Origin: Spirochaetaceae bacterium
GTDB lineage: Bacteria; Spirochaetota; Spirochaetia; B11-G9
Reading direction: 5' to 3'
Assembly: GCA_030638735.1 (NCBI GenBank)
Contig: DAOWEB010000368.1
Span: 1-33,277 of the forward strand
Length of the DNA stretch: 33,277 nt
Position numbers and translations under genes: made by a program. The notes below the pieces were generated by a model. That model searched no databases and was not told the origin of the DNA. It worked only from the letters and a program-made list of their open reading frames with translations. Positions 851 through 30,459 of this stretch are shown here, in pieces (position 1 is the first letter of the stretch; every line of letters begins with the position of its first letter).

Positions 851-904
851 GTTTGTTTTTATGTAGGGATGCCCCTGCGTGGGCGTCCATATATAAAAAC
901 AAAC
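851..904. repeat. 54-bp imperfect hairpin (palindrome family, long form)
   Basis: The arms gtttgtttttat (851-862) and ataaaaacaaac (893-904) pair, and the same axis continues into a GC-rich core, ggatgccc (867-874) with gggcgtcc (881-888), around a 6-nt loop. There is one mismatch and two G-U pairs over 24 pairs. It lies past the 3' end of the Mut7-C gene, after a second hairpin. It could be a terminator-like 3' structure or a small mobile palindrome with AT-rich outer arms. Confidence 0.8.
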
Positions 905-923
905 GGAACCATCGCAAAGCCCG

Positions 924-966
924 ACCTGCTGTAGGGGCGAACCTTGTGTTCGCCTCTATGGCAGGT
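924..966. repeat. 43-bp hairpin at the 3' end of the Mut7-C gene
   Basis: acctgctgtaggggcgaac (924-942) pairs with 948-966 around a 5-nt loop, cttgt. That gives 19 pairs, three of them G-U. The inner part has the GTAGGGGC...-type end shared by the other palindromes in this window. It begins 13 nt beyond the stop of the Mut7-C gene. No U-tract follows on the minus strand, so it is not a classic intrinsic terminator. Confidence 0.8.
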
Positions 967-979
967 GACACCCCAATAA

Positions 980-1726
980 TTACTGCAAATCCATACCTGT
1001 CATTTTAATAAAATTGTTGTAATGACTTCCCTTCCAGTATATTTTACCACAGCTATCGCAGACCTTGAAATTATCATAGTACATTGCTGTTTTAGGAGCC
1101 AGTCTGTCCAGAATATCCTTCTTATCCACCTGTAGAAGTTTTCCGTTGCATTGGGGACAGCGGGAATAGAGGGATAGAGAGTCTATAAGGTCAAATCTTT
1201 CCAGTACGGCATAGTACTGAAGGAGAACATTCTGAGACCTTATCCAGTATCCCCTTTGAATTATGGAACGTTTTAACAGGTCCCTGTCCCTTGTCAGCAC
1301 AATTCGGTTTTCCCGGGCAGATATTTCCGCAATCTCTTTGTCCTTATATGAATTGCTGTAGAGAGTGTCGAATCCTCCTATGCGCAGGTATCTGGCCAGC
1401 TTTCCAAGATTTACATCGAGTATAAACAGAGCCCCATTTGAGGAGAGCAGTCTTAAAGGCAGGGGTCTAAGTTTTGTTGCATTTTTTATATCCAGGGACT
1501 CAAAAACAGGGTAAACAGATATTCTGTCATTAGCCTTTACCTGATATGAGAAGTCAACAGAGTTACTGTTTACTAGAATTAGATCTACCTCTGTATGGGG
1601 AACATTCTCCGACTCAATAAGATCCTTTACAGTCTGGCCCGGATTGGTTTTAACAGTAAAACTAACCTTTTTTTTCTCTACTACAAGAAAATCATTTAGC
1701 TCTTCATAGAATCTTATTGTGACCAT
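980..1726 (-). CDS. Mut7-C RNase-domain protein with N-terminal ubiquitin-like fold
   Basis: The predicted 248-residue protein has three parts. Residues 1-80 resemble the ThiS/ubiquitin-like domain often fused to Mut7-C proteins. Residues 100-180 are a PIN-like nuclease domain (LDVNLGKLARYLR, with acidic D104, D120, D147 and D149). The C-terminus is a zinc ribbon with C190, C193, C223 and C226. Family knowledge suggests an RNA-cleaving or RNA-binding protein; its substrate is unknown. The ATG at 1726 has no evident ribosome-binding site, but an extended -10 lies directly upstream, so the message may be leaderless. It is the last gene of the leftward series and is followed by two hairpins. Domain assignment is solid, role inferred. 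Confidence 0.85.
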   Translation of the reverse strand: MVTIRFYEELNDFLVVEKKKVSFTVKTNPGQTVKDLIESENVPHTEVDLILVNSNSVDFSYQVKANDRISVYPVFESLDIKNATKLRPLPLRLLSSNGALFILDVNLGKLARYLRIGGFDTLYSNSYKDKEIAEISARENRIVLTRDRDLLKRSIIQRGYWIRSQNVLLQYYAVLERFDLIDSLSLYSRCPQCNGKLLQVDKKDILDRLAPKTAMYYDNFKVCDSCGKIYWKGSHYNNFIKMTGMDLQ

Positions 1727-1733
1727 TAAGCTA

Positions 1734-1742
1734 ATTATATCA
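1734..1742 (-). promoter_or_regulatory. Candidate extended -10 promoter, possibly leaderless
   Basis: On the minus strand TGATATAAT fits an extended -10 (TGN followed by TATAAT). It ends 7 nt before the ATG of the Mut7-C gene, so transcription would start at about the start codon. No good -35 is visible. Sequence-only prediction. Confidence 0.4.
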
Positions 1743-1844
1743 TCAATATAACAACTCTAAAATTATTCTTACTATTTTTACCTGGAAACTATAAAAAACC
1801 ATGTTACCGATACTAAAACAGGAAAAATTGCTAATATTAAGTAT

Positions 1845-2303
1845 TTACATTTCAAGCTTATCCTGTTCTAAAAAATCCGGAAACATATACAGGATCTGAC
1901 CTTCGCTCGAAACTTCTACATTTGCATGCCCACGGGATGCCAGACTGTTTAAAATAGTTTCTGTTTCTTCTATAGGAGCATCTATAAACAGTGCAGTCCG
2001 GGCAACAGTAACTTTTCCACCAGCCTTTTTTGCTGCCCTGAGAACCATGTTTTCCAGTTCAAGCTTTCTTTTTTTTGCATTTGGTTTACTGTCTATCATT
2101 TTTTTACTTTTTGCAGCCAGCCTTGTAATACCTCTAATAAGAGAACCTGCACCAAGAGCAACAAGAATCCAGCTCCAGAAAGGAAAACCCATATGCATAC
2201 CCATTCCCATAGAGGAAGATCCCCCATATAAGAAAAATGGAATAGATATCATTACAGTACCTGTTATTACTTCGCCAATTGCGCTTTTTCTATGTCTTCC
2301 CAT
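1845..2303 (-). CDS. Small membrane protein with C-terminal winged-helix-like domain
   Basis: I chose the ATG at 2303 rather than the GTG at 2333. It has an AGGA ribosome-binding site 7 nt upstream, and the longer version would start inside a palindrome. The 152-residue product (MGRHRKS...) has two hydrophobic segments near its N-terminus, with a Gly/Met-rich linker (GGSSSMGMGMHMG) between them. A basic stretch follows, then about 60 residues that look like a winged helix (VLRAAKKAGGKVTVARTALF ... FPDFL). That domain resembles wHTH tails on small bacterial membrane proteins. It follows aat by 4 nt and is probably co-transcribed. Function unknown; a membrane-tethered regulator is one possibility. 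Confidence 0.7.
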   Translation of the reverse strand: MGRHRKSAIGEVITGTVMISIPFFLYGGSSSMGMGMHMGFPFWSWILVALGAGSLIRGITRLAAKSKKMIDSKPNAKKRKLELENMVLRAAKKAGGKVTVARTALFIDAPIEETETILNSLASRGHANVEVSSEGQILYMFPDFLEQDKLEM

Positions 2304-2307
2304 TGTT

Positions 2308-3051
2308 TTATCCTGTTTTATTCGTTGGGGCACGGCGCGCCGTGCCCTTACAATCTATCAGATTGTGCCAGTTCCCTCTACGGGTATCTGCCTCTAACCC
2401 TTTATTTAACAGTTCCAGATATTCTTGTCTAGCAATTTTTACTGCTCCCAAAGACTCAAGATGGGGTGTGTAGAGCTGGCAATCTATCATTGAAAATCCT
2501 AATTTACCAAGGGTTTGTGCAAGAACAATAAAGGCTGTTTTTGATGCATCAGTTTTTTTTGAAAACATTGACTCTCCAAAAAAAACAGAACCTATAGAAA
2601 GACCATACAGTCCTCCTACCAACTCGTTATCTTCCCAGACCTCCAGGGAATGGCCCCATCCCAGTTCATGAAGGCTTATATATGCATCTTTCATTTCTGA
2701 GGTAATCCAGGTTCCGTCCTCATGTTTTCTGGAAATTCCTCCACATGATTTAATAACTTCCCTAAACTGATTATCCATAGAAAATGAAAACCTATGCTTT
2801 TTAAAATTACGTTTCATAGATTTTGAAATATGTATATTTTCAGGGAAAAGAACCATTCGGGGATCCGGACTCCACCATAAAATAGGTTCCCCTTCTGAAT
2901 ACCAGGGAAATATTCCCTGTTTATAAGCTGAAAGAAGCATTCCCGGAGAAAGATTACCCTCCATACCGACAATACCTTCAGGACTGGCATTATTTATATC
3001 CGGAAACTGGAAATGTTCAGTCTCATTTATGTATGGAAAAGAGCTATCCAT
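2308..3051 (-). CDS. aat: Leucyl/phenylalanyl-tRNA--protein transferase
   Basis: Aat transfers Leu or Phe from aminoacyl-tRNA to proteins with N-terminal Arg or Lys, creating primary N-degrons for ClpS-ClpAP. The family signature is clear: GNLSPGMLLSAYKQGIFPWY, WWSPDPRMVL, the HELGWGHSLEVW stretch, GGLYGLSIGSVFFGESMFS and the LGFSMIDCQLYTPHL core. It starts 3 nt after the clpA stop, with AAGGA as ribosome-binding site, so the two are probably translationally coupled. The C-terminus is odd: after the usual end (about WHNLI) the frame continues through a GC-rich palindrome that encodes roughly GTARRAP before a TAA. These extra residues look acquired rather than functional. Identification is very secure. 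Confidence 0.95.
   Translation of the reverse strand: MDSSFPYINETEHFQFPDINNASPEGIVGMEGNLSPGMLLSAYKQGIFPWYSEGEPILWWSPDPRMVLFPENIHISKSMKRNFKKHRFSFSMDNQFREVIKSCGGISRKHEDGTWITSEMKDAYISLHELGWGHSLEVWEDNELVGGLYGLSIGSVFFGESMFSKKTDASKTAFIVLAQTLGKLGFSMIDCQLYTPHLESLGAVKIARQEYLELLNKGLEADTRRGNWHNLIDCKGTARRAPTNKTG
2324..2351. repeat. 28-bp palindrome inside the 3' end of aat
   Basis: A perfect 20-bp palindrome (gggcacggcgcgccgtgccc, 2328-2347) sits within a 28-bp element whose ends (gttg...ttac) match the GTAG...CTAC termini of the other elements with two defects. It is much richer in GC than its surroundings. It forms the last sense codons of aat, upstream of its stop. Confidence 0.9.
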
Positions 3052-3054
3052 TAA

Positions 3055-5316
3055 CTAATCCTTAACAGATATTACTATTTCATCATTTTTAATATCTGCT
3101 GTTGCAACTCCACCATCTTTCAGCTTTCCAAACAAAATCTCATCTACAAAAAAGTTCTTAATTTTATCTTCTACCATTCGGGCAATATTTCTTGCACCAA
3201 ACTCATAAGAGTAACCATGATCTGCAATCCATATTCTACAGGAAGAACTAAGTTCCAAAGTTACATTTTTCTCTGCAAGAAGTATAGAAAACTCTGATAT
3301 TTCTTTATCTACAATCTTGAGGATTACTTCATTTTCCAGTTTGTTAAATGAAATAATCTTATCCAGTCTATTTCTAAACTCAGGACTGAATGTTTTATCC
3401 ACTGCATCTTTTATAGCTTCATCGGTAATTTTATAATCACCGAAACCGATAAGATCACGACCTATATCCCTGGCTCCTGCATTACTTGTCATAATTAATA
3501 TAATATTTCTAAAATCAGACTTTCGTCCATTATTATCTGTAAGGGTTGCGTAATCCATAATCTGCAGCAGTATATTAAAAATATCAGTATGAGCTTTTTC
3601 AATCTCATCCAATAATAAAACTGCATGGGGTTCTTTTCTTACAAGATCAGTAAGAAGCCCGCCTTCTTCATATCCAACATAACCTGGAGGAGCTCCTACA
3701 AGCCTGCTGACAGTATGCTTTTCCTGATACTCACTCATGTCAAATCTATGAAGTTTTACCCCAAGGGTTTCTGCAAGCTGTCTTGCAAGTTCTGTTTTTC
3801 CAACTCCTGTTGGACCTGCAAAAAGAAATGATGCCACAGGTTTATCTTTCTTCCCAAACCCTGCTCTGGATCTCTTTATGGCCTGGACCACTGAATCTAC
3901 AGCCATATTCTGACCAAAAACCAGGTTTTTCAATTTATCTCCCAGATTCTGTAACTGATCAATCTCACTGCTTGAAACTGTCCGTTCAGGAATACCGGCA
4001 ATCCGTGCAATAACTTTTTCTATTTCTCCCTCATCGATTTTTGACGGTTCTTTATCTTTATCACCGGTACGGTATGAAAGGATCTGAAGCCAGGCACCGG
4101 CTTCATCAATAACATCAATAGCTGTATCCGGCTGATGCCGCTCACGCATATATTGGGAAGAAAGGGTCACAGCAGATTCAAGAGCTTTTTCTGTATATGT
4201 AACATTATGATAGGACTCATACTTTTCTTTTAGGCCATTCAGTATCTGAAGAGTTTCTTCCATTGATGTTTCTGGTACATTAATTTCCTGAAAACGTCTC
4301 GAAAGGGCACGATCCTTATCAAAACTTTTTTTATATTCAGAAAAAGTAGTAGATCCCATACAGCGAAGTTTTCCTGTTGCAAGTGCCGGTTTAAGAAGAT
4401 TTGATGCATCCATGGTTCCTCCGGATACAGCTCCGGCTCCCACAATTGTATGTATTTCATCTATAAAGAGAATAACTTTTTCCTCTCTTTTCAACTCTTC
4501 TATTATCTTTTTCATTCTTTCTTCGAAATCACCACGAAACTTGGTTCCAGCAAGAAGTCCACCCATATCCAGAGAAAAAATTCTATAGCCTTTTAGAATA
4601 TCAGGAACTTTGCCCTCTTCAATCCTCGCAGCCAGACCCTCTGCAATTGCAGTCTTACCTACTCCTGGTTCACCTACTAAAACAGGATTATTTTTTAACC
4701 GCCTGCAAAGAACCTGAATTGTACGCTCAATAATATCCTCCCGCCCAATAAGAGGTTCAAGCTCATCATCGGTTGCAGCCTTATTCAGGTTTCTGGTATA
4801 TAGTTCAATTGCAGACTTACGCTGTTTTTTTCCATTTGGTTCAGCAAAATCCTCATTATCTAAAAATTCTTCATCAGAAGGATTCAGAAAGTATTCGTCA
4901 GCAGTCCTGCTAATAGCCTTTAGAAGAGAATATCTGGTAAGACCTGCCTTGCGCATATAATATGACCCATGAAGAGATTCAATATCAAAAACCGATACAA
5001 GAATATCATTCAGATCAACAGTATTTTTAGAAGAAGTTTCAGTATGAAAAATTGCACTTTCTATTACACTTTGGAATCCCGCAGTCTGAACAGGGTCACG
5101 ATCTTCAATATAAGGAACCATTTTAGAAAGATAGGAATCTACATCCTTTTTAACACTTTCTATATCAACCTGACACTCATTAAAAATACTCTTTATTTCC
5201 TCAAAAAATAATGCAATATGAAGAATATGCTCAGGAGTAAGATATTCATGTTTACGCTTTTTTGCCTCAAGATAAGCTGCATTTAAAGCATTTTGAACTT
5301 CATCAGATATTTTCAA
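3055..5316 (-). CDS. clpA: ATP-dependent Clp protease ATP-binding subunit ClpA
   Basis: ClpA is the AAA+ unfoldase that feeds substrates, including ClpS-delivered N-degron proteins, into ClpP. The translation shows a Clp N-domain ([27 protein letters not shown]), AAA-1 with Walker A GEPGVGKT and Walker [10 protein letters not shown], and AAA-2 with GPTGVGKT and [10 protein letters not shown]. The LIGFG loop has the form used to dock on ClpP. I chose the TTG at 5316, not the ATG at 5385. The TTG has GGAG 7 nt upstream and gives about 753 residues, the usual ClpA length and N-terminus (LKISDEVQ). With this start the gene overlaps the end of clpS by 14 bp. clpP is not in the window. Confidence 0.95.
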
Positions 5317-5620
5317 GAATACACTCCAGAGGAAAATCTTTTTCCCGGGCTTTTTCCTGAACCTGCCAGACCTTTGTACTGGCAATATCCAGAGGATAAG
5401 TACCTACAACGCCCTGACCCTTTTTGTGGACATCCATCATAATCTTTGTTGCTTCACCAGCAGATCTATGAAAAATATTTATAATAACATCAACTACAAA
5501 ATCCATAGTAGTATAATGATCATTAAGTAAAATAACCTTGTACATTTCAGGTTCCCGGGGTTTTGTATCAACCCCTTCATCCAGATCTGTACCAATATTT
5601 ATACCTGGAAAATCAGACAT
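5303..5620 (-). CDS. clpS: ATP-dependent Clp protease adaptor ClpS
   Basis: ClpS recognises N-degron substrates and hands them to ClpA. The 105-residue protein has a short flexible N-terminus and the core PREPEMYKVILLNDHYTTMDFVV, including the NDHYTTMDFV stretch that forms the N-degron pocket in characterised homologues. The DVHKKGQGVVGTYPLDIA helix-turn region is also typical. The ribosome-binding site is GGGGTG. The gene begins 14 nt after nifU and overlaps clpA, so clpS-clpA-aat forms one compact N-degron module. Identification is very secure. Confidence 0.95.
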   Translation of the reverse strand: MSDFPGINIGTDLDEGVDTKPREPEMYKVILLNDHYTTMDFVVDVIINIFHRSAGEATKIMMDVHKKGQGVVGTYPLDIASTKVWQVQEKAREKDFPLECILENI

Positions 5621-5634
5621 TTCAACACACCCCT

Positions 5635-6243
5635 TTATCCATAAGTACCACCATACAAGTGATTGTACTCATGAAGAAGTTCAAGAGTTTTGTCCTTACA
5701 TTTACCACAGACAGTACCTATTTCCGTCTTTTCCTGAAGTTCTTCGTAAGTGGTGACTCCCCGTTTTACCTGATCTTCAATATCCTGATCTGTAACTTCC
5801 TTGCACTCACATATCATAACAGCAGTATTACCTTTAAAAGGATTATCTCTACCCTGCTTTTCCAGATAATCATCAATAGCAGTTCTTAATGCTCTGTCAC
5901 CCAGCACAGAACAATGGAATTTATGATTTGGCAACCCACCAAGTTGGTCTGTAATATCTGCAGGAGTTATTTTATATCCTTCAGCAAGAGTCATTCCTTT
6001 TACAAAAACAGATAGCATTGAAGTACTGGCAATAGCACTGGCACATCCGTAAGTTTTCCACTTACAGTCTGTAATAATATCATTTTCAACTTTTATAGCA
6101 ACAAGCATTTCATCACCACAGGCCATACTTCCAACTGTCCCACTTCCGTCGGCATTGAATTCTGTTTCATCAGTTAAAATATTCCTTGGATTTATAAAAT
6201 GATCTTTTACTGTTTCTGTATATACCCAGTCCGGTCCACTCAT
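5635..6243 (-). CDS. nifU: NifU/IscU-type Fe-S scaffold with BFD-like [2Fe-2S] domain
   Basis: This is a scaffold on which iron-sulfur clusters are built from sulfur supplied by the adjacent desulfurase. Residues 1-130 are IscU-like with the three ligand cysteines at C42 (ACGDEM), C67 (YGCASA) and C111 (HCSVLGD). Residues 140-190 are a BFD-like domain with C145, C147, C179 and C182 (CECK...CGKC). At 202 residues it lacks the C-terminal Nfu domain of full NifU, so it is a two-domain form. The ribosome-binding site AAGGA precedes the ATG. It lies 38 nt downstream of nifS. The nearest name is nifU; iscU/nifU-like is equally acceptable. Confidence 0.9.
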   Translation of the reverse strand: MSGPDWVYTETVKDHFINPRNILTDETEFNADGSGTVGSMACGDEMLVAIKVENDIITDCKWKTYGCASAIASTSMLSVFVKGMTLAEGYKITPADITDQLGGLPNHKFHCSVLGDRALRTAIDDYLEKQGRDNPFKGNTAVMICECKEVTDQDIEDQVKRGVTTYEELQEKTEIGTVCGKCKDKTLELLHEYNHLYGGTYG

Positions 6244-6276
6244 TATTTTTTTCCTTTATAACTAATAATGGGTTCC

Positions 6277-6291
6277 CGACGCTACGCGTCG
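6277..6291. repeat. Palindrome overlapping the nifS stop codon
   Basis: cgacgc (6277-6282) and gcgtcg (6286-6291) are inverted around tac. On the minus strand this supplies the last codons and the TAG stop of nifS. It looks like a degenerate member of the palindrome set seen at other gene ends here. Confidence 0.65.
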
Positions 6292-7466
6292 CCCAATTTA
6301 TTTCCTGGAGAAAATGTTGACATCTTTCGTATTTTTTCGATGATATCCGGTAATATGGATAACACATAATCAACATCTTCTTCTACATTAAATCTGCCAA
6401 AACTAAACCTTATAGAGCCATGGGCATTTTCAATATCAACACCGGTTGCAATAAGAACATGAGAAGGTTCAAGGGAGCCTGTGGCGCACGCTGATCCTGT
6501 TGAAACAGCAACACCTGCCAGATCAAGATAAAGAAGAATCGATTCACCCTCTGCACCGGGAAAAGATATATTTAAAGTCCCGGGTAATCTGTGGTCAGAA
6601 TCTCCATTAATTTCGATATCAGGAATTGACTTCAGAAGACCTGTTTCAAGTCTGTCTCTCATTCCTTCTATTTTACGATTCTCAACTTCAAACTCAAGCA
6701 GGGCCATCTCTGCAGCCTTACCAACACCAGCAATTCCAGGTCCATTTACTGTACCTGCACGAAGACCTTTCTCCTGATGACCCCCGTGAATAAAAGATGC
6801 AATTTTTAATCCCTTTTTTATATAGAGCCCGCCGACACCTTTTGGACCATAAAACTTATGGCCCGAAAAACTTAAAAAATCAATTTCAAGCTGCTTTACA
6901 TCTACTTTTATTTTTCCAAGAGCCTGAACAGCATCAGAATGCATCAGGGCCCCATTTCTATGGGCAATAGAGCTTATTTTTTTTAGGTTCTGTATTGTAC
7001 CAATTTCATTATTTGCAAGCATAATAGAAACCAGAGCTGTTTTATTATCAACTGCTTTTTCAAGTTCATCAATATTAATCCGCCCCTTTCCATCAACACC
7101 TATAAAAACTGTTTCCATCCCTTCATTACCCAGTTCCCTAACAGTCTCCAGAACACTGGGATGTTCTATTACAGAAGTAATTATTTTATTTCTCTTACTG
7201 GAAGCAGAAGTAAGGAGAAATTGTTTTAGAACCATATTATTTGATTCTGAACCACCGGCAGTGAAAATTATCTCATTTTCTTCTGCATTTATAAGAAGTG
7301 CCACCTGCTTCCTGGCCCATTCAACTTTACTAATAGCTTCCCTGCCGAAAAAGTGCATACTGGAGGGGTTCCCGTAAATATTAAAACTATTTGTAAGCTC
7401 TTTTATCACTTCAGGGTGCAGGGGTGTGGTTGCGTTATTATCAAGGTATATTATTCGTTCATTCAT
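6282..7466 (-). CDS. nifS: Cysteine desulfurase, NifS/IscS family
   Basis: A PLP enzyme that takes sulfur from cysteine for Fe-S cluster assembly. Family landmarks are visible along the 394 residues: YLDNNATTPLHPEV, NPSSMHFFG, FTAGGSESNN, H102 (SVIEHPSVLE), the PLP lysine K204 (SFSGHKFYGPKG), GLRAGTVNGPG and the catalytic cysteine C327 (STGSACATGSLEPSHVL). The longer active-site loop fits the IscS/NifS group rather than SufS. The start has GGAGA 6 nt upstream. It is directly upstream of the NifU-type scaffold. The last residues (about NKLGDA) and the stop derive from a palindromic element, so the C-terminal tail may have been remodelled. Confidence 0.93.
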   Translation of the reverse strand: MNERIIYLDNNATTPLHPEVIKELTNSFNIYGNPSSMHFFGREAISKVEWARKQVALLINAEENEIIFTAGGSESNNMVLKQFLLTSASSKRNKIITSVIEHPSVLETVRELGNEGMETVFIGVDGKGRINIDELEKAVDNKTALVSIMLANNEIGTIQNLKKISSIAHRNGALMHSDAVQALGKIKVDVKQLEIDFLSFSGHKFYGPKGVGGLYIKKGLKIASFIHGGHQEKGLRAGTVNGPGIAGVGKAAEMALLEFEVENRKIEGMRDRLETGLLKSIPDIEINGDSDHRLPGTLNISFPGAEGESILLYLDLAGVAVSTGSACATGSLEPSHVLIATGVDIENAHGSIRFSFGRFNVEEDVDYVLSILPDIIEKIRKMSTFSPGNKLGDA

Positions 7467-7567
7467 AGCTTATCTCCAGTCTCCTATAAGAACTAAAAAT
7501 AAGCACCTTAGGGCTAATAGTCAAGATCTGAATGCAGTATAATAAAATTAAAATATAGATGAAAAAA

Positions 7568-9592
7568 CTACTCCCCGGGGCCATAATAAACAGAGCGATC
7601 CTTACCACTCCTGTCAAAATGAGAAACCTGGACTTCAACAGGAAGAGCTCTTCTGCCAAAGTCAGAATCCCTTTCAGTTCTGAATTTCAGAGTATATGAC
7701 CCGGAAGGCTTGCTTCTTAAATGAGGAAGTATTGCATTAATACCTGATGGACCATAAAGAGGAAGGGTCAACCCTCCTGTTTCCTTACTCAAAAACTCCA
7801 GTTCAGGAGATTTATCGTTATCATTAACATAAACTGTGTAAAATACAATACCATTATTATTAAGATAATCCAGAGTTTCTGTAAGGCTGTAGTGGGAAAA
7901 CGCTTCCTGGTTTAATTTGCCTGAGGAAAGAAAAATAACAGCTTTTCTGGATCCTCCTCCAATAAGCTGAGTTGAGGCCAGACGCATTCCAAGATCAAAA
8001 CTCCAGTTTTTACTGTAATTTGTATTTACACTGAGAGAATCCTTAATCTTTTCAATACCAGACCCCTGTTCAAGGTCAAGAACAGGAATCTCTTCTGCAG
8101 TGATAATACTGATCACCCCCCGTCCCTCTATGGAATCAAGAAGGTCTTTCATGGCATCTACTTTAGCTGACCCTGAAACTTTTATTATATCAGAACCTTC
8201 TACAAGATAGCTGATATCTACAAAATCTGTTTTATTCCCGGATGAGATTAAGGACATACTGCTATTTGTATAACTATCTTCTGCAAGTAAAAAATTATTC
8301 TCCTCAAGACCGACATATTTAGAACCATCAACTGTGCTGATAGTTAGTTCAACCAGAATATTGGGGAAATCATCAGAAAGTATTCGATCTATACTGAGAT
8401 TTAGCCCGGTATACATCCTTGTATAATCTGTCAGGAGAGTCACTTTGTTCCCATTGAAATCGATAGCAACAATATTACCGTTAATATCTTTAAAAGCCTT
8501 CATTAATCTGGCTGTTTGTTCCAACCCCGCAAATACCCTGAATGATTCATCATAAATATTAAACAGAATAATTCTATTCCCGTCTGCAATCAGATATTCA
8601 TTTTCTGAAAAAGAGGATATCCCCTCAGGAGCAATAAGTAAGTCTGATTTGTAAGATTTTATATAATTTCCCTGGCTGTCAAAAAGATACAGTTCTTTTT
8701 TTCTTCCATCTGCAACAAGAACCTTATTCTCTATAAAAATAATTCCCGTAGGCTGTTTAAATCCATTAAAATACTCGTTTTCCTTACCAAAGGAAAATAT
8801 AAAATTCCCCTCATAGTCAAATTTTGAAACCCTGCCGTTCCCGCTTTCAGTTACATATATATGGTTTTCTCCATCATCTGTAAAAAACTGGGGTCCCAAC
8901 AGCTCACCGGAACCACTTCCTGGACTACCAAACCGGAAAATACTCTTCCCCCCTTTTGAAGATCTAATTATCCTGTCACTGGAATATTCAGAAATAAACA
9001 GATAATCTTTAGTTTCAATAATATCAAAAGGATGATTTATAGCTGAAAGCCCTCCCCTGAAGGTTTGTTTAACCACACCATTTACAGAAAATTTCTGAAC
9101 TTCATTTGTTGCAAAAGAAGAAAGATAAAATCCACCATCAAAGGTCGGAAACCCGGAACTGGGGCGTTTAAAAATTGAATACTCATCTGTTACACCAAAA
9201 ATCTCATGAAAAAAAACATATCTCGGAGTCTCTTTAAGGTCAGGACCCATAGTACGAAGGTATTTTATATTATCAACCTTGACTCTAAGGTCGATACTAC
9301 CCCCTCCCTTTTCCAGAATATCTGTCCAGTAAGCAATAGCAGCATCCGTAAAACCTGCACGATAATGTGCATGCCCCAACCATAATTTTGTTTTTTCCCA
9401 ATAAGGTTTTAAAGATAGAGATTTTTCCAGAGAAAGAATAGATTCATTGAATTCACCCCGATGATATGAGATAACACCCCACTGGAATTCATGATTAGCA
9501 TCAACTTCATCCAGATCTATCTGTGCATAAAGTTCAAAACTGAAAATAAAAAGGAGAAATATTAACAAAAATCCATTAGTTATTTTTTTCAC
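7568..9592 (-). CDS. Secreted TPR / NHL-type beta-propeller / vWA-like protein
   Basis: The 674-residue product starts with a signal peptide (KKITNGFLLIFLLFIFSFELYAQ). Two TPR-like units follow (about 35-100: FQWGVISYHRGEFNESILSLEKSL...), then a run of NHL/propeller-like blades at about 130-390 (for example GPQFFTDDGENHIYVTESGNGRVSKFD). The C-terminal part (about 480-620) resembles a von Willebrand A domain (RKAVIFLSSGKL...NGIVFYTVYVND) but lacks an obvious DxSxS metal site. The start is a GTG with no strong ribosome-binding site. It lies 37 nt downstream of the TPR gene. Likely an envelope protein-interaction platform; substrate and partner unknown. The domain reading is by eye. Confidence 0.75.
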   Translation of the reverse strand: MKKITNGFLLIFLLFIFSFELYAQIDLDEVDANHEFQWGVISYHRGEFNESILSLEKSLSLKPYWEKTKLWLGHAHYRAGFTDAAIAYWTDILEKGGGSIDLRVKVDNIKYLRTMGPDLKETPRYVFFHEIFGVTDEYSIFKRPSSGFPTFDGGFYLSSFATNEVQKFSVNGVVKQTFRGGLSAINHPFDIIETKDYLFISEYSSDRIIRSSKGGKSIFRFGSPGSGSGELLGPQFFTDDGENHIYVTESGNGRVSKFDYEGNFIFSFGKENEYFNGFKQPTGIIFIENKVLVADGRKKELYLFDSQGNYIKSYKSDLLIAPEGISSFSENEYLIADGNRIILFNIYDESFRVFAGLEQTARLMKAFKDINGNIVAIDFNGNKVTLLTDYTRMYTGLNLSIDRILSDDFPNILVELTISTVDGSKYVGLEENNFLLAEDSYTNSSMSLISSGNKTDFVDISYLVEGSDIIKVSGSAKVDAMKDLLDSIEGRGVISIITAEEIPVLDLEQGSGIEKIKDSLSVNTNYSKNWSFDLGMRLASTQLIGGGSRKAVIFLSSGKLNQEAFSHYSLTETLDYLNNNGIVFYTVYVNDNDKSPELEFLSKETGGLTLPLYGPSGINAILPHLRSKPSGSYTLKFRTERDSDFGRRALPVEVQVSHFDRSGKDRSVYYGPGE

Positions 9593-10304: not shown

Positions 10305-10312
10305 TTAACTTC

Positions 10313-13053: not shown

Positions 13054-13081
13054 GTAGGGGTGTATTGCAATACACCCCTAC
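13054..13081. repeat. 28-bp perfect palindrome after rpmE
   Basis: gtaggggtgtattg (13054-13067) is followed immediately by its exact reverse complement (13068-13081), with no mismatch. It lies 22 nt beyond the rpmE stop. No T-run follows on the minus strand. Same length and the same GTAG/CTAC ends as the element at 30432. Confidence 0.95.
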
Positions 13082-16823: not shown

Positions 16824-16851
16824 GTAAGAACTCGATAAATCGAGCACCTAT
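16824..16851. repeat. 28-bp imperfect palindrome overlapping a stop codon
   Basis: The core ctcgat-aa-atcgag (16831-16844) lies inside a 28-bp element with gtaag...cctat ends. A second pair of arms, aataggtg (16809-16816) and cacctatt (16845-16852), encloses it. The TAG stop of the cyclase-tail gene (16848-16850) is inside the outer arm. Confidence 0.7.
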
Positions 16852-23172: not shown

Positions 23173-23196
23173 TCAATCTCCTCCAAAGAATGAATT

Positions 23197-23225: not shown

Positions 23226-23231
23226 ATGTAA

Positions 23232-23298: not shown

Positions 23299-23311
23299 AA
23301 TCTTCACCTTA

Positions 23312-24097
23312 ATGGAAAATCTTATGAAACTGTTTGATACTCATGCTCATATTGGGCTAATTACAGAAGACCCAATTGACCAGCTAATAATTACCCAGGA
23401 AGCAAAACAAGAGGGAATTGCACATATTTTAAGCATCTGCAACAATCTCCAGGATTTCTTTCAGGTTTACCAGAACCTTTCAACAGCAACACATATATAT
23501 CATAGTATCGGCGTTTCTCCTTCAGAAGTTATGCATCCGGGAAAGGATTGGGAATTAAAAATTGAAGAAGGAATAAAACTAGATAGAATTGTAGCTATTG
23601 GAGAAATTGGTCTTGATTATTATAGGAAATTTGGAAACAAAGATTCTCAAATAGAATTATTTATCAGACAACTTGAGCTTGCTCATCAATACAATCTACC
23701 TGTTGTTATACACAACAGAGAAGCTGGAAGAGATGTACTGGAAATTTTAAGAGATAAACTTCCTCCAAAGGGAGGAGTTCTTCATTGCTATTCTGAAAAC
23801 TGGGAATTTGCACAAGAAGCTCTGAATCTAAATCTTTATTTTTCATTTGCAGGGAATGTAACTTACCGGAATGCCCGGAATCTTCATGAAACTGCAAAAA
23901 ATCTGCCCCTGGACAGGATTCTTATTGAGTCAGAAAGCCCTTTTATGGTGCCCTCCGCTTTTCGGGGAAAGAGAAATAAACCAGCTTATTTAAAAGCAAC
24001 AGCTGAATTTATTGCAGAACTCCGGGAAGAAGATATAGAAATGGTAAGTTCAACTCTTTATGAAAACAGCCTACGTTTTTTTGGACTGAACTCATAA
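23312..24097 (+). CDS. TatD-family metal-dependent hydrolase (DNase-like)
   Basis: TatD proteins are TIM-barrel, two-metal nucleases. The 261-residue protein has the N-terminal DTHAHI, the GEIGLDYYRKF acidic site, and the histidines in VIHNREAG and VLHCYSE. The C-terminal RGKRNKPAYL element is also there. One departure stands out: the usual (E)TDSP metal-ligand motif reads ESESP, replacing the conserved Asp with Glu. Activity may be altered. The start could instead be the ATG at 23324 (MKLFDTHAHI), which fits family N-termini better but has only a weak ribosome-binding site. It lies 16 nt before dusB, probably co-transcribed. Confidence 0.9.
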   Translation: MENLMKLFDTHAHIGLITEDPIDQLIITQEAKQEGIAHILSICNNLQDFFQVYQNLSTATHIYHSIGVSPSEVMHPGKDWELKIEEGIKLDRIVAIGEIGLDYYRKFGNKDSQIELFIRQLELAHQYNLPVVIHNREAGRDVLEILRDKLPPKGGVLHCYSENWEFAQEALNLNLYFSFAGNVTYRNARNLHETAKNLPLDRILIESESPFMVPSAFRGKRNKPAYLKATAEFIAELREEDIEMVSSTLYENSLRFFGLNS

Positions 24098-24113
24098 TTT
24101 CAGGATTGATAAT

Positions 24114-25094
24114 ATGAAATCTCCTCTTTTCCATTCTATTAAAATAGGAAATGTAACAATCCCGGGGAATTTATTCCTTGCCCCCCTTGCCGGGTTTACA
24201 GATAAGGCCTTTCGATCAATCTGTATTGACCGGGGAGCTTCATTTACATACAGTGAAATGGTATCTGCAGAAGCTCTTGCCAGAGATAGTGAGAAAACCA
24301 GAAAACTAATGGAAAGAGCAGAAAATGAAAACCTTCTGGGAATCCAAATTTTTCTACCAAACGCAGATACTGCAAAACGTGCTGTTCCGGAACTACTTAA
24401 AGCCAACCCCACTGTTATTGATATAAACTGCGGTTGCCCTGTACCCAAAGTGGTAAAAAATGGCGCCGGTTCAGCACTAATGAAAAAACCGGAGATAATT
24501 GAAGAAATAATAAAAACAATATCCGGAGAAACTGATATCCCTGTAACAGTAAAATTCCGTACAGGATGGGATTTAAACTCTATTAATTATCTAAGCTTTG
24601 CAGAAGCAGCAGTCAGGGGAGGTGCAAGCTTACTCACAATGCATGGTCGAACACGAAGTCAGGGCTATAGTGGTGAAGCCGACTGGGAATCCATTAAAAA
24701 ACTAAAATCAGAATTTGATGTACCTGTAATTGGTTCCGGAAATATATTCTCTGCAGAAGATGCTAAAAGAATGCTGGAAACAACTGGAGTTGATGGTGTT
24801 CTTTTTGCCAGAGGCGCTATGGGCAATCCCTTCATTTTTGAAAGAACAAAAAATCTGCTTATGGGAAATGACTCCCCCTCACCAAACAGTATGGATGTTA
24901 AAATAAAAACAGCCTGGGAACATCTATCTCTGGCGGTCCACTATAAAGGAGAACAAACTGCGTGCAGAGAAATGAAAAAACAGCTATGCAGTTACACAAA
25001 AGGAGAAAAAGGTTCTGCAGCTCTGCGAAACAGAATTGTCAGGGCAGAAACCCTGGAAGAATATAGAGAAATTTTTAAAGAATATCTTTTATAG
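24114..25094 (+). CDS. dus: tRNA-dihydrouridine synthase (DusB-like)
   Basis: An FMN enzyme that reduces uridines in tRNA. The 326-residue protein has LAPLAGFTDKAFR at the N-terminus, the NCGCPVPKVVKNGAGSALM motif with catalytic cysteine C108, KFRTGW, TMHGRTRSQGYSGEADW and GSGNIFSAEDA for FMN phosphate binding. The short C-terminal helical domain follows. The motifs fit the bacterial DusB group; the exact tRNA position cannot be read from the sequence. It is the last plus-strand gene and converges on rlmB across a repeat-containing gap. Confidence 0.92.
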   Translation: MKSPLFHSIKIGNVTIPGNLFLAPLAGFTDKAFRSICIDRGASFTYSEMVSAEALARDSEKTRKLMERAENENLLGIQIFLPNADTAKRAVPELLKANPTVIDINCGCPVPKVVKNGAGSALMKKPEIIEEIIKTISGETDIPVTVKFRTGWDLNSINYLSFAEAAVRGGASLLTMHGRTRSQGYSGEADWESIKKLKSEFDVPVIGSGNIFSAEDAKRMLETTGVDGVLFARGAMGNPFIFERTKNLLMGNDSPSPNSMDVKIKTAWEHLSLAVHYKGEQTACREMKKQLCSYTKGEKGSAALRNRIVRAETLEEYREIFKEYLL

Positions 25095-25100
25095 AATCAA

Positions 25101-25251
25101 TATGATGCAAACATAACAGATATTAAATATAAATTCATTCTGATTCCAGAATCACATCTGTACGGAACGCAGATCTGTGTTCCCAACATTATGATGCATA
25201 CATAACAGATATTAAAAATAAATACAATCCGATTCAATCCATCACAAATGT
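25101..25251. repeat. Direct duplication of about 60 bp in the dus-rlmB gap
   Basis: Copy 1 (about 25101-25161) and copy 2 (about 25190-25251) share tatgatgca, acataacagatatta and gattc in the same order, with scattered substitutions. The best-matched 47 bp agree at about 40 positions. The palindrome at 25160-25187 lies between the copies. The gap separates two converging genes. The copies have diverged, so the duplication is not recent. Confidence 0.8.
25160..25187. repeat. 28-bp palindrome between the two duplicated copies
   Basis: ggaacgcaga-tctgtgttcc (25164-25183) is an inverted repeat of 10 pairs with one G-U. It sits within a 28-bp element with gta...aac ends. Same architecture as the elements at 13054 and 30432. 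Noncoding, 65 nt from each flanking stop codon. Confidence 0.8.
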
Positions 25252-25252
25252 A

Positions 25253-26020
25253 TTAGGAAAAATCCTGCTGACGCCTGATTTCATACATCATAATACCGGC
25301 AGCCACAGAAACATTCAGAGAATCAACATGACCTTTTGCTGGAATAGATATTAGATTATCACATTTTGTTCTGGTTAATTCACGCAGACCTTTACCTTCA
25401 GATCCCATTACAAGAACAACCCTGCCTGTAAGATTTGTTGTATTAATACTTGTACCATTCATATCAGCTCCATAGATCCAGAATCCAGCTTTTTTAAGCT
25501 GATCCATAGCCCTGCTGATATTTGTCACCACATTAATATTAACATAATTATCAGCACCAGCTGATGTCTTCGAGACAGTTGCATTGTCCTTAGCACTGTT
25601 TCTTGAAGGAATAAGAACCATATCAGCATAAAACTGATCAGAACTTCGTATAATTGCTCCAAGATTATGAGGATCAGTAACTCCATCCAGAATTATTACA
25701 AAAGCATTATCTGAATTCAGATTATCAAGATAGGTATCAAGGTCAGTATGGTTTTTTCTACCAGAACCTCCACCTTTTTTATTTTTTGAAACAGATCCGG
25801 ATGAACCAACAAAAACTATTCCTCTATGACTGGTGTCTTCTATTATTTTTGAGATTTCTACTTCAGATACCTTCAAAGTCCGGTATCCCTGTTTTTTTGC
25901 CAGATCAAGTATAACAGCACTTCTTTTGGATATTTTAGAATAGTAAATAATTCCATCAGATTTTTTCTTTTTAAGTAGCTCTTCAATACTATGAAATCCT
26001 GTATAAACTGTACCTTTCAA
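25253..26020 (-). CDS. rlmB: 23S rRNA 2'-O-ribose methyltransferase, RlmB/TrmH (SpoU) family
   Basis: A SAM-dependent SPOUT enzyme. The 255-residue protein has an N-terminal L30e-like RNA-binding domain (TVYTGFHSIEELLK...RGIVFVG). A Lys/Gly-rich linker follows, then the trefoil-knot motifs ILDGVTDPHNLGAIIRSS, LVMGSEGKGLRELT and SIPAKGHVDSLNVSVAAGIMMYE. The N-terminal domain makes RlmB (Gm2251-type) more likely than TrmH, but the target site is inferred. Its ATG overlaps the upstream gene by 4 bp (ATGA). Confidence 0.9.
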   Translation of the reverse strand: MKGTVYTGFHSIEELLKKKKSDGIIYYSKISKRSAVILDLAKKQGYRTLKVSEVEISKIIEDTSHRGIVFVGSSGSVSKNKKGGGSGRKNHTDLDTYLDNLNSDNAFVIILDGVTDPHNLGAIIRSSDQFYADMVLIPSRNSAKDNATVSKTSAGADNYVNINVVTNISRAMDQLKKAGFWIYGADMNGTSINTTNLTGRVVLVMGSEGKGLRELTRTKCDNLISIPAKGHVDSLNVSVAAGIMMYEIRRQQDFS

Positions 26021-26472
26021 CTTGTCTCATCTCCACCAAACATTTTAACCTTATCAATATCACCATTAAAATCTATGTCCTGCTCATATTTTTCTATCAT
26101 TGTCCCATCTAATATATAGACCCATATATCTATTTTCATATCAAAATTTGAATCAACCTCTCTTCTGACTATTATTCCATCAGAATAGAAATAAAGATCA
26201 TCCATTTCACCATCATGATTAAAATCCATTAATTCCAAAATCTTGTCACCATCAGAATTTGTTCTAATAAAATAATCTATATTCCCATCATTATTAGAAT
26301 CATATTCCTCTATAAAGGTACCTTCCATAGTTTTATCAAGCTCTAATAAAATATCAGTCACTTTTATTATTCGATCCATAGAAAAAAGGGTTCCGGAAGC
26401 TGTAAACAGTAAAAAAAACAGCATAAAGTATTTAAATTGATTCATCTTTTTACTATCGGATAAGAAGCCCAT
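26017..26472 (-). CDS. Small secreted protein with Asp-rich calcium-binding-like repeats
   Basis: I prefer the ATG at 26472 (an AAGGGA ribosome-binding site upstream) over the TTG at 26493; the ATG at 26445 is an alternative. The product is about 151 residues with a signal sequence (FKYFMLFFLLFTASGTLFS). Four or more short repeats follow: DSNNDGNIDY, DFNHDGEMDD, DSNFDMKIDI, DIDFNGDIDK. They resemble the EF-hand/dockerin-like D-x-N-x-D-G-x-x-D loops that bind calcium. No known family is recognised. It begins right after the dnaJ terminator, its binding site lies in the terminator stem, and it is coupled to rlmB. Likely a periplasmic or surface protein. Confidence 0.7.
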   Translation of the reverse strand: MGFLSDSKKMNQFKYFMLFFLLFTASGTLFSMDRIIKVTDILLELDKTMEGTFIEEYDSNNDGNIDYFIRTNSDGDKILELMDFNHDGEMDDLYFYSDGIIVRREVDSNFDMKIDIWVYILDGTMIEKYEQDIDFNGDIDKVKMFGGDETS

Positions 26473-26512
26473 AAAAAAAAGTCCCTTATACAATTTAATA
26501 TGCCAAGGGACT
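26473..26512 (-). terminator. Intrinsic terminator after dnaJ, overlapping the next gene's ribosome-binding site
   Basis: On the minus strand AGTCCCTT (26505-26512) and AAGGGACT (26480-26487) form an 8-bp stem, followed by a run of T residues. The hairpin begins 5 nt after the dnaJ stop. The AAGGGA in the 3' arm is the likely ribosome-binding site for the ATG at 26472. Confidence 0.75.
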
Positions 26513-26517
26513 CTAAT

Positions 26518-27651
26518 TTATCTCAACTCTGACAGAGGAATAGGTTCAGGGTTGTCACTCCCTTTTTCCAGCTCAGATAGTTCCTTTAACAATGATTTTG
26601 CTTTACCGCTCAATTTAACAGGAATATTTACTCTGATTTTAATATACATATCACCCCGTCTGCCGGCATTGTGAAGATACGGAATACCCTCACCTCTAAG
26701 ACGCAATATTTTATCATTCTGAGTTCCTGCAGGAATCTTAAGCTTAGCTTTTTTATCATCCAGTGTTTTCACCATCAGATCAGATCCCAGAGAAGCCTGT
26801 GTCATTGAAATCGGTATAACACAATAAACATCTGCTCCATCACGTTCAAAGTATTTATGTGGAGTAACAGTAATATATACATATAAATCTCCTGTTAATC
26901 CACCATTGGGACTGGCATTACCCTGACCGGGAATATTTATTCTTTTACCGGATTCAATACCAGCAGGAATAGTGACCTTAATCTTTTGGCTCTTCTGGAC
27001 TACTCCAGCACCACGGCAACTCTTACAAGGATTCTCAATTACATAACCATCACCATTACAGGTGGGACAGGCAGAGGCTATAGAAAAGAACCCGGAACTG
27101 CGTCTTACCTGGCCGCTGCCGCCGCAGGTAGGGCACATTTTCCTGCCGCCACCGGATTCTGCACCGGTTCCATTACAGGGAGAACATTCAATATGCCTGT
27201 TATAAGTTATTTGAACTTTCGTTCCAAAAACAGCATCCTTAAAAGGAATATTAAGGTTGTATCTTAGATCAGAACCTCTTGGTTGTGCAGAACGGCCACT
27301 GTGACCACTGCGACGACCTCCGCCGCCACCAAAGAACGAATCAAAAATACCACCAAAGTCACCAAAGATATCCTCAAAGTCTCTATACACTGTGGAATAA
27401 TCATGCCCCTGACCACCAGTCATGCCTTCTACACCGGCAAATCCATACTGATCATAGACTTGTTTCTTCTTTGCATCACTTAGAACTTCATAGGCTTCTG
27501 TGCCCTCTTTGAATTTCTCTTCAGCGCTCTTATCACCCTGATTTTTATCAGGGTGATATTTAATTGCAAGCTTTCTATATGCTTTTTTTACTTCATCTGC
27601 CGAGGCATCTTTAGATACTCCAAGCACTTCATAATAATCACGTTTTGCCAA
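26518..27651 (-). CDS. dnaJ: Chaperone protein DnaJ (type I)
   Basis: The Hsp40 co-chaperone that stimulates DnaK's ATPase. The 377-residue protein has the J-domain with HPD at 33-35, a Gly/Phe-rich segment with GG runs, four zinc-binding CxxCxGxG modules ([32 protein letters not shown]) and the C-terminal substrate domains. It starts 20 nt after dnaK. A terminator lies just downstream. The full zinc module marks it as a true DnaJ rather than a J-domain-only protein. Confidence 0.97.
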
Positions 27652-27671
27652 ACCAAAAACTCTCTATCTAA

Positions 27672-29624
27672 TTATTTGTCTGAATCTTCATCATCGATTA
27701 CTTCATAATCGATATCCTCAACAGTTCCACTACCGGACTGTGTTTCTTCACTATCCTGAGCGCCCCCGGCAGCACCGGTTGATGCTCCATCTGCTCCAGC
27801 TTCAGGACCAGCTGCATTTGCCTCTGTGCTCTTATAAATCTCTTCTGCCAATTTATGAGCTGTCTGTTTTAATTCTTCAGATTTAGACTTAATTTGTTCA
27901 ATATCACCAGCCTCAAGAGCTTTTTTCAAAACTTCTACACCTGCTTCTATAGCAGATTTGTCTTCTGCTGAGACTTTATCACCAAAATCTGTAAGAGATT
28001 TTTCAGTTGAATATATAAGAGAATCAGCCTCATTCCTAACTTCTACCTTTTCTCTCTCCTTGCGGTCTTCTTCTGCATGAAGCTCAGAATCCTTTACCAT
28101 TTTTTCAATTTCTTCATCAGAAAGTCCGGAGGAGGATTCAATTCTAATTTTCTGTTCTTTACCTGTTCCAAGATCTTTAGCAGATACATGTACTATACCA
28201 TTTGCATCTATATCAAAGGTAACCTCTATTTGAGGAACACCTCTTGGTGCAGCAGGGATACCTACAAGATCAAATCTACCAAGAGCTCTGTTCTGAGAAG
28301 CCATTTCACGTTCACCCTGAAGAACACTTATAGAAACTGCTGTCTGATTATCTGCAGCAGTTGAAAAAGTCTGACTCTTTCGTGTTGGAATAGTAGTATT
28401 TCTTTCAATAAGTTTTGTAGATACACCACCTAATGTTTCAATACCAAGAGATAACGGTGTTACATCTAAAAGAAGAACATCCTTAACATCACCGCCAAGA
28501 ATACCTCCCTGAATAGCTGCACCCATTGCAACAACTTCATCAGGATTAACTCCCTTATGAGGTTCTTTCTGAAATAAACTCTTAACTAATTCCTGAACAG
28601 CAGGAATTCTCGTAGAACCACCTACCAAAATAACTTCATCAATATCTGCAGGTGTAAGTCCCGAATCCTTAAGAGCATTAAGACAAGGCTGTTTTGTTCC
28701 CTCTACAAGCTTATTTACCATCTGCTCAAATTTTGCTCTTGTAAGAGTATACTGAAGGTGTTTTGGCCCTGATGCATCAGCAGTTATAAAAGGAAGATTA
28801 ATTTCTGTTGAATGGGTACTTGAAAGTTCAATCTTAGCTTTTTCAGCGCCCTCTTTTAATCTCTGAAGAGCCATTCTGTCCTGAGAAAGATCAATTCCAA
28901 AATCTTTTTTAAAACTCTCTATTAACCATTCAATTATTCGCTGATCAAAATTATCACCACCAAGATGAGTATCTCCATTAGTAGCTTTTACTTCAAAAAC
29001 ACCGTCTCCAAGTTCAAGTATAGAGATATCAAAAGTTCCACCACCTAAGTCATAGACGGCTATTTTTTCCTCTTTTTTATCCTTATTAAAACCATAGGCA
29101 AGAGCTGCTGCTGTAGGTTCATTTACAATACGCTTTACTTCAAGACCTGCAATTTTACCTGCATCCTTTGTTGCCTGACGCTGGGCATCATTAAAATATG
29201 CAGGAACAGTTATTACAGCTTCTGTAACAGATTCACCAAGATAATCCTCTGCTGTTTTTTTCATTTTCTGCAATGTAGCTGCAGAAATTTCCTGAGGAGA
29301 AAAATCTTTTCCATGTATCTCCACATGAACTTCACCACCGGATCCTTCTTTAATTGTATAAGGAACCATCTTAATCTCATCCGGAACTTCAGAAAAACGA
29401 CGTCCCATAAATCTTTTAATCGAGTAAACAGTGTTCTCAGGATTAGTTACTATCTGATTTTTAGCAGGCTGACCAACAAGCCTGTCATCTTTTGCAGTAA
29501 AACCTATAATAGACGGAGTAGTTCTCTGTCCTTCAGCATTCTGAATTACAACAGGTTCGCCCCCTTCCATTACAGATACACATGAATTTGTTGTTCCAAG
29601 GTCAATCCCAATTATTCTTCCCAT
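27672..29624 (-). CDS. dnaK: Chaperone protein DnaK (Hsp70)
   Basis: The 650-residue chaperone has the N-terminal ATPase ([39 protein letters not shown]), the linker [19 protein letters not shown] and the substrate-binding domain. The C-terminal tail ends in an acidic [12 protein letters not shown]-like stretch. AGGAGAT precedes the ATG. It is the middle gene of grpE-dnaK-dnaJ. The Ala/Gly-rich tail ([18 protein letters not shown]) is typical of bacterial DnaK. No hrcA or CIRCE operator accompanies it in the window. Confidence 0.98.
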
Positions 29625-29679
29625 TATTTTATCTCCTAAATCATATTACAAATATTATTACACATGGACACTACCATGA

Positions 29680-30312
29680 TTATTTATCATTCACTGTTTC
29701 AGCTTCGGGGCTGAGTACTTTAGGCATAGCCACCTTTACCTTTGCAGGCCGCAGCACCCTGTCATGAAGAATATATCCACTCTGATAATCCTCAATAACG
29801 GTCTGCATGTCATATTCAGAACTTTCTTCCATCCCAAGAGCCTCATGCTTCTGAGGATCAAATTCCTCACCAACAGCAACCATTCTTTTTAAACTCCAGT
29901 TCCTATCAAGCATACTTACAAACTGTTTCTCAATAAGTTCAATACCGGAATGAAAGCTCTCTGCATCAGTAGAGTCCTGAGATGATTTAATTGCTCTTTC
30001 AAAATCATCAATAATAGTTATTAAATCCAACAATAAATTGGAATTACCATACTTAATTGAATCCTCTTTCTCTCTGAGTATACGTTTTCTATAATTATCA
30101 GATTCTGCCTGTTTTCTTAAAATCTGGTCTTTTAAAGAACTATTTTCATTTTCCAGTGATGTAATTATATCCTTATTCTTTTCTTCTTCAGTCTTCTTTA
30201 CTTCTTCTTCACTGATATTATCCTCAGCAATAGTAAGTTCTTCTACAGAGTCCTTTCCCACCATATCTTCCTGTGGAATTTCCTCTTTCTCCTCTTTTTG
30301 CTTCTTAGACAT
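29680..30312 (-). CDS. grpE: Nucleotide exchange factor GrpE
   Basis: Releases ADP from DnaK. The 210-residue protein has an acidic, charged N-terminal tail, a long coiled coil (about 50-110: ITSLENENSSLKDQILRKQAESDNYRKRI), and the C-terminal domain with GEEFDPQKHEALGMEES and the ending GYILHDRVLRPAKVKVA. GAGGG precedes the ATG. It starts the chaperone operon and has a strong promoter upstream. Confidence 0.95.
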   Translation of the reverse strand: MSKKQKEEKEEIPQEDMVGKDSVEELTIAEDNISEEEVKKTEEEKNKDIITSLENENSSLKDQILRKQAESDNYRKRILREKEDSIKYGNSNLLLDLITIIDDFERAIKSSQDSTDAESFHSGIELIEKQFVSMLDRNWSLKRMVAVGEEFDPQKHEALGMEESSEYDMQTVIEDYQSGYILHDRVLRPAKVKVAMPKVLSPEAETVNDK

Positions 30313-30370
30313 ACCACCCTCGTTAAGTTAATTGTAATTGTTGATATTTTATTGATTTATCGTATGCCAT

Positions 30371-30399
30371 AAAATACTAATCAACGTGGGAAGGGTCAA
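30371..30399 (-). promoter_or_regulatory. Strong candidate sigma-70 promoter for grpE-dnaK-dnaJ
   Basis: On the minus strand TTGACC, 17 nt, TATTTT, giving a leader of about 50 nt before grpE. No CIRCE inverted repeat (TTAGCACTC-N9-GAGTGCTAA) is present, so HrcA control is not supported by this sequence. Confidence 0.65.
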
Positions 30400-30431
30400 G
30401 CTTTTTAGTTAAAAAATGTATTGATTGTAGA

Positions 30432-30459
30432 GTAGAGACGTTGCATGCAACGTCTCTAC
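30432..30459. repeat. 28-bp perfect palindrome after the SpiroCoCo gene
   Basis: gtagagacgttgca (30432-30445) is followed immediately by its exact reverse complement (30446-30459), ending 2 nt beyond the stop codon (30462). No T-run follows. The GTAG/CTAC ends match the element at 13054, but the central words differ. Confidence 0.95.

Follow-up and report, generated by a model that had tools for sequence, protein, structure and literature searches.

Palindromes with GTAG and CTAC ends in a Spirochaetaceae genus: probable double-foot REPs whose cores differ between species at shared sites

The DNA analysed here is a stretch of 33,277 nucleotides from a Spirochaetaceae bacterium (contig DAOWEB010000368.1 of assembly GCA_030638735.1; hereafter the window). 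At or near the 3' ends of several of its genes lie short palindromes of about 28 bp that share ends close to GTAG and CTAC, while their central words are unrelated. The initial annotation had grouped eight such sequences into one family. Two of these, at positions 13054 and 30432, are perfect members and four, at 924, 851, 2324 and 25160, are imperfect or decayed relatives, but those at 16824 and 6277 are unrelated (Table 1). The element at 30432, with the sequence GTAGAGACGTTGCATGCAACGTCTCTAC, is a perfect 28-bp palindrome without a loop and with GTAG and CTAC ends; both it and the element at 13054 reach a palindrome score of 14, compared to at most 9.5 in first-order shuffles of the window.

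The genome to which the window belongs (G000; a 4.33-Mb draft in 431 contigs) and the genomes of five congeners (G001 to G005), all six being drafts of 290 to 431 contigs, were searched with the pattern GTAGRGR..YCYCTAC, and the same pattern reversed served as a control. G000 contains 54 matches versus 9 for the control, a genome-wide excess, and its palindromes form core words that occur in multiple copies, such as TTGCATGCAA, CCCTATAGGG, TAGCATGCTA and CGCAGATCTGCG. The five congeners have 26 to 61 matches each. A sample of 560 kb from two congeners, with genes called by a simple open reading frame (ORF) rule, held 50 strong palindromes, 26 of them of the GTAG type, compared to 4 after shuffling. 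A stricter pattern, applied to 148 genomes from the class, gave 8 to 27 copies in each of the six congeneric genomes; among the other 142, more than one copy was present only in G011 (7 copies) and G127 (32 copies), three had a single match and the rest had none. Exact copies of the 28-mer at 30432 occur elsewhere in G000 and in at least 117 GTDB contigs, which belong to Cyanobacteria, Bacteroidota, Chloroflexi, Calditrichota, Gammaproteobacteria and other groups and include the named isolates Runella, Anabaena, Taibaiella and Desulfamplus. All 30 of 30 cross-phylum carrier genomes contained 2 to 110 copies, compared to 0 or 1 control matches. This patchy distribution over distant phyla is that of a horizontally spread element. 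Among contigs listed as viral in IMG/VR, which may be those of phages or misassigned host sequence, 109 stretches with GTAGAGACG-N10-CGTCTCTAC were observed (L435 onwards), with perfect cores in 46 of 107 distinct sites.

The initial annotation had pointed to a RAYT-type (REP-associated tyrosine transposase) gene, REP standing for repetitive extragenic palindrome. Such a gene exists, with palindromes both inside and beside it, but it is not the canonical one. G000 encodes one canonical RAYT (L004; 85.8 bits against NF047646) and the congeners encode several, which we rejected as partners because the canonical genes are not flanked by palindromes. The general presence of RAYT or Y1 genes was likewise rejected as the determinant, since G006 to G009 have Y1 genes and show no excess of palindromes over the control. 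A class-wide search revealed a second, divergent Y1/HUH group with a variable insert in the palindrome-carrying genomes. In ten of these genes (L545, L546, L196, L553, L554, L555, L560, L561, L562 and L563) a GTAG..CTAC palindrome lies in frame between the HUH motif and the tyrosine. The same arrangement occurs across phyla (L049, L107, L095, L433), and a profile of the divergent group found it in Chlorobiota, Flavobacteriales, Desulfamplus and Mariniphaga. The internal core is usually repeated outside the gene, namely ATTCATGAAT in L546 and L555, CAAGATCTTG in L196, ACGGTTTGAAACCGT in L554, CACGGCCGTG in L560 and L561, and CAAAATCTTG in L563. The transposase copies of G000 itself have flanking palindromes and no intact internal one; the gene on G000:C342 is preceded by TTGCATGCAA palindromes at 71 and 191 bp and followed by one at 15 bp, and this core is that of the window element at 30432. 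In the 16 members that matched both motifs, HUH and tyrosine are 63 to 128 residues apart. Different genes read the internal palindrome in different frames (VETHGRASL, GRDARSCVST, RGDRPVAPT); the encoded peptide is therefore not conserved, and the idea that it is a specificity loop was rejected.

In a transposase tree of 26 sequences, a small sample from which the variable insert had mostly been left out, the AGAC-footed and GGG-footed types form two clades. Foot and core labels, which were assigned by eye where they came from degenerate or flanking copies, require 3 changes each, the minimum, compared to shuffle means of 7.3 and 6.3, respectively, and none of 500 label shuffles was as low as 3 for either. 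Core words and foot types follow the transposase tree: several transposase lineages each own a cognate palindrome of fixed foot type and core word, and the core words differ for that reason while many of them have the same ends. The initial annotation had suggested a mobile family that diversifies its core: mobility is supported, but the cores do not drift within one family, each being tied to a transposase lineage. In a Stygiobacter and a Melioribacter-labelled genome (L412, L413), 20-bp palindromes of the type CAGT..ACTG with differing cores surround Y1 transposase genes, a possible parallel case with other ends.

These observations indicate that the GTAG..CTAC palindromes are very probably double-foot REPs of TnpA_REP subclass 2.4, non-autonomous elements tied to an HUH transposase of the same genome. 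Corneloup et al. (2018; PMC6006769), in the part of that paper considered here, equate this subclass with RAYT group 4 of Bertels et al. (2017), describe double-foot REPs both beside tnpA_REP and inside the gene, where they are in frame and separate HuH from Y, and report the subclass as abundant in Cyanobacteria and Bacteroidetes and scattered elsewhere. The ends GT[AG]G and C[TC]AC, the flanking and in-gene copies and the phylum spread are the same there and here; we found these ends, the flanking REPs, the in-frame internal REP, the variable HuH-Y region and the patchy occurrence among phyla. The same part of that paper makes no mention of sites being re-occupied by other cores, nor of breakpoints at the palindrome centre. 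The repeats GTAG-1 to GTAG-24 (Di Nocera et al. 2013; PMC3733652) are alike in having a GTAG end and a short hairpin, in lying mostly downstream of genes and sometimes within palindromes, and in that their TAG often serves as a stop codon. However, their GTAG is unpaired and present at one end only, whereas both feet of the elements described here pair with each other. Furthermore, the lists of that study contain no GTAG repeats from Spirochaetes or Bacteroidetes.

A REPIN consists of two inverted REPs and a spacer, whereas each element described here is a single palindrome without a spacer. The small dispersed repeats of cyanobacteria that Elhai and colleagues described in 2008 reportedly have a common structure, dissimilar sequences and nested copies, a lead that we take by description only. 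The REPIN/RAYT systems (Bertels and Rainey 2011; PMC3116915) resemble the present one in that short hairpin repeats are tied to a Y1 transposase. The REP 'orthoswitch' (Nunvar et al. 2013; PMC3686654) is also similar, as orthologous RAYT genes of related strains are flanked by different REP classes and new REP variants may partly replace old ones. However, it concerns REPs beside RAYT genes, whereas the exchange described below is found at ordinary dispersed sites.

Orthologous sites were compared among the six congeneric species, with flanks that are mostly 70 to 87% identical. The same position usually holds a palindrome, but another one. By automatic scoring, in which some sites were counted from more than one reference, 49 of 83 comparisons were occupied, mostly by another core and in a few cases by the same core. 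The same scoring gave 0 of 92 for element-free junctions of the window; since three palindromes turned up at such junctions in a separate scan, which covered 134.5 kb of alignment, a fair baseline is about 3% rather than zero. At the L302 site the six species have different cores within an outer stem that is largely kept paired: GGGAACGGTTTAAAACCGTTCCC in G000, GGGACAGGTCGCGACCTGTCCC in G001, AAGACGCAAGATCTTGCGTCTC in G002, a 40-bp form in G003, and two variants of one core word in G004 (AGAGACGCACGGCGGTGCGTCTCT) and G005 (AAGACGCACGGCCGTGGGTCTC). All six species differ at L303:16352. At L304 the flanks aataatC and Gaatcaatta enclose AGGTCGCGACCT in G002 and AAAAAATCTTTT in G005, and at L009 the stem ATAATCTG/TAGATTAT is common to G000 and G005 but encloses another core in each. 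At the site of the window element 30432, the palindrome of G005 is GTAGGGATGCCCCTACCTGGGCATCCTAC and lies equally far from the stop codon, G002 has a long form and G001 has nothing. At L271, half of an older element is still present next to the new one in G000, and G003 has a core deletion. A target-site duplication, as expected of a MITE, was not found at clean two-sided empty sites, which were few in this comparison. Among the six species, what is kept is the position with its outer stem, and what varies is the core. The initial annotation had called for a comparison of presence or absence at orthologous sites; the sites are re-occupied by different subfamilies.

Based on these data we propose, tentatively, that REPs compete for a limited number of permanent hairpin sites. 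The site and its stem would be long inherited, and the 28-bp core would repeatedly be exchanged for the cognate word of whichever group 4 transposase is active, either by insertion at the centre or by conversion through the feet. At the replication fork, the transposase would mobilise single-stranded hairpins in trans. New copies would insert in the middle of a palindrome or hairpin that is already present and the older cores would disappear, so that the site, with its outer stem, would last longer than any single core. The last step may be carried out by the transposase or by repair at the hairpin tip, and the sharing of foot types described below leans slightly towards conversion through shared ends.

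Gene conversion is said to have been raised as an origin of REPs by Higgins and colleagues in 1988. The palindromes could be mobile and yet be exchanged in place by replication and repair: the hairpin tip would break or would stall the fork, and the broken arm would copy another palindrome through the shared ends by ectopic conversion or template switching. We regard this as possible, albeit with some doubt. A partial copy lies immediately upstream of 29 of the 720 oriented elements; 14 of the 29 partial copies end −1 to +4 bases from the palindrome axis, which is the expected place of the hairpin loop. Tandem half-units that end at the axis were found at L060 and L112, and L305 is also a half-unit array. 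Foot types are shared within sites in 34 of 80 pairs versus 23.2 expected (permutation p-value of about 0.011, based on hand-assigned classes, which lessens the weight of the test), and at L304 the different cores are enclosed by almost the same flanks. Template switching has been reported to create and maintain hairpins (PMC8794818, in the part considered here). On the other hand, core-specific transposases are a simpler source of whole-word replacement, and there is only one clear half-and-half chimera, which also led us to reject core diversification by the joining of half-elements. A copy inside a decayed relative was seen at L105, and the strict pattern yielded no self-nested copies. A further observation concerns a second, REP-like repeat family (CTGGTCGCAACTTCG..; CTGGTCGCAACTTCGTTGCTGCTCGCCTATGCATCC), which has many near-identical copies in all congeners. 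It is found near the centres of GTAG palindromes, as in G001 (L345, L348), and inside the repeat of the 6277 type (L345 and L348 in G001, L196 in G004, L272 in G005).

Alternatively, the sites could be ordinary insertion hot spots, at which each species received an independent insertion at the centre of a pre-existing stem and nothing was replaced. The elements are indeed centred exactly in longer inverted repeats of at least 6 bp more often than expected (8 of 48 versus 0.30; across phyla 9 of 120 versus 0.43), and GTAG REPs of other families insert into palindromes (PMC3733652). We nevertheless consider this doubtful: an empty outer stem was not seen in any species at the six- and five-species sites L302, L303:16352 and L304, and the L271 site, with its older half-element and its core deletion, speaks against a simple first insertion.

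It is far less probable that the palindromes are kept as bidirectional terminators or as hairpins at mRNA 3' ends, their pairing being selected while the sequence drifts. This would agree with their placement in the 560-kb sample, where 12 of 20 placed elements lie between convergent genes compared to 46 of 276 junctions, with the strength of the hairpins (−16.5 to −19 kcal/mol for those at 13054, 30432 and 2324) and with the outer stems that are paired across species. However, no T-tract was found outside the elements of the congener sample (T 0.27-0.35 versus A 0.37-0.40 in the first 10 bases), and a canonical intrinsic terminator was rejected on this ground. Moreover, copies lie within ORFs, some of them in frame in transposase genes, the elements are patchy among relatives while identical words recur across phyla, and whole subfamily words are exchanged, which is not drift. 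Selection on hairpin structure, one of the two explanations offered by the initial annotation, thus retains the paired outer stems and the preference for convergent gene pairs but leaves the overall pattern unexplained; it may act as a secondary effect. In 6 of 17 cases in the same sample, the stop codon of the gene is the TAG contained in GTAG. Finally, that the palindromes are chance occurrences or assembly artefacts, as the fragmentation of the drafts might suggest, is refuted by the reversed-pattern and shuffle controls, in the genus as in the 30 carrier genomes, and has practically nothing in its favour, given that records of named isolates carry the 28-mer and that the flanks are unique within contigs.

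Several points weigh against the interpretation of the palindromes as double-foot REPs tied to group 4 transposases. The assignment to subclass 2.4 rests on a match to the published description and not on the authors' own profile, and the divergent Y1 proteins score about 30 to 60 bits against NF047646, for which the cut-off is 80. A matching transposase was not found for every core, for example for TATTGCAATA at 13054, and 3 of the 30 cross-phylum carriers gave no Y1 match, maybe due to draft incompleteness or a weak score. Conversely, G058 and G170 appear on inspection to have the transposase type without the palindromes. Neither an excision footprint nor a target-site duplication was established at the sites compared, and no movement was directly observed.

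The individual elements of the window are listed in Table 1. The initial annotation had placed all of them at or just beyond stop codons, which is only partly correct: those at 30432, 13054 and 25160 lie 2, 22 and 66 bp past a stop codon, respectively, the hairpin at 16824 directly precedes the start of an ORF, the closest called stop being about 215 bp away, and the element at 2324 lies inside an ORF. This element makes up the last codons of ORF 2308-3051 and encodes its C-terminal residues (GTARRAPTNKTG), so that to judge from the reading frame it has altered a protein end. An intact relative of this element, GTAGGGGCACGGCGCGCCGTGCCCCTAC, occurs in G001, and a different palindrome is found at its site in G002 and G003. 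The element at 25160 is a decayed copy of GTAGGGAACGCAGATCTGCGTTCCCTAC, which is found intact elsewhere in G000, and its orthologous site has other palindromes in G001, G003 and G004. No two-sided orthologous site was found for the element at 13054 among the congeners compared. The region 920-972 folds as RNA with −33.7 kcal/mol, and the element at 851 is missing at the G001 site. The repeat of about 120 bp in this region (about 819-941) has GTAG-type elements at its stem tips and is present in multiple copies in G000 and the congeners. The hairpin at 16824 lies upstream of a bactofilin-like gene and was lost in G004; it is considered to be vertically inherited because the GATAAATC centre is kept in congeners together with paired changes in the stem. 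The site of the repeat at 6262-6303 is empty in G005, single in G001 and double in G004. Rfam gave no match at gathering score in the window.

Table 1. Palindromic elements and hairpins of the window, with positions counted from its first nucleotide.
Feature	Position	Remarks
Imperfect composite, 54 bp	851-904	Imperfect GTAGGGATGCCC.. element capping a GTTTGTTTTTAT/ATAAAAACAAAC stem; in the ~120-bp repeat
Imperfect double-foot REP (TGTAGGGGCGAACC..)	924-966	Hairpin that forms the tip of the outer stem ACCTGC/GCAGGT
Decayed double-foot REP, core GGCACGGCGCGCCGTGCC	2324-2351	28-mer; perfect 20-bp core at 2328-2347, decayed feet GTTG/TTAC
Different repeat of ~44 bp, outside the family	6262-6303 (listed as 6277)	CGACGC/GCGTCG hairpin; multi-copy in congeners
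Intact double-foot REP GTAGGGGTGTATTGCAATACACCCCTAC	13054-13081	Perfect 28-bp zero-loop palindrome, GTAG/CTAC ends; 22 bp beyond a stop codon
Hairpin outside the family, centre GATAAATC	16824-16851	Similar centre and paired stem changes in several congeners
Decayed double-foot REP, CGCAGATCTGCG subfamily	25160-25187	Between convergent genes, 66 bp past a stop codon
Intact double-foot REP, core TTGCATGCAA	30432-30459	Perfect palindrome; 2 bp past the stop codon of gene 30462-33236

Taken as a whole, the elements are of a known kind, while the turnover of cores at permanent sites seems undescribed in the REP papers considered here and appears new with respect to the known double-foot REPs. The identical words in distant phyla would mark the horizontal traffic of a very small mobile element. 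How REPs move, and how their sequences diversify under a constant structure and constant ends, has been a question since 1988. This genus offers a natural experiment on that question, with fixed sites, conserved stems, cores that would name the transposase and partial copies that would mark strand breaks, and it should make transposase-driven exchange and hairpin-tip repair directly separable.

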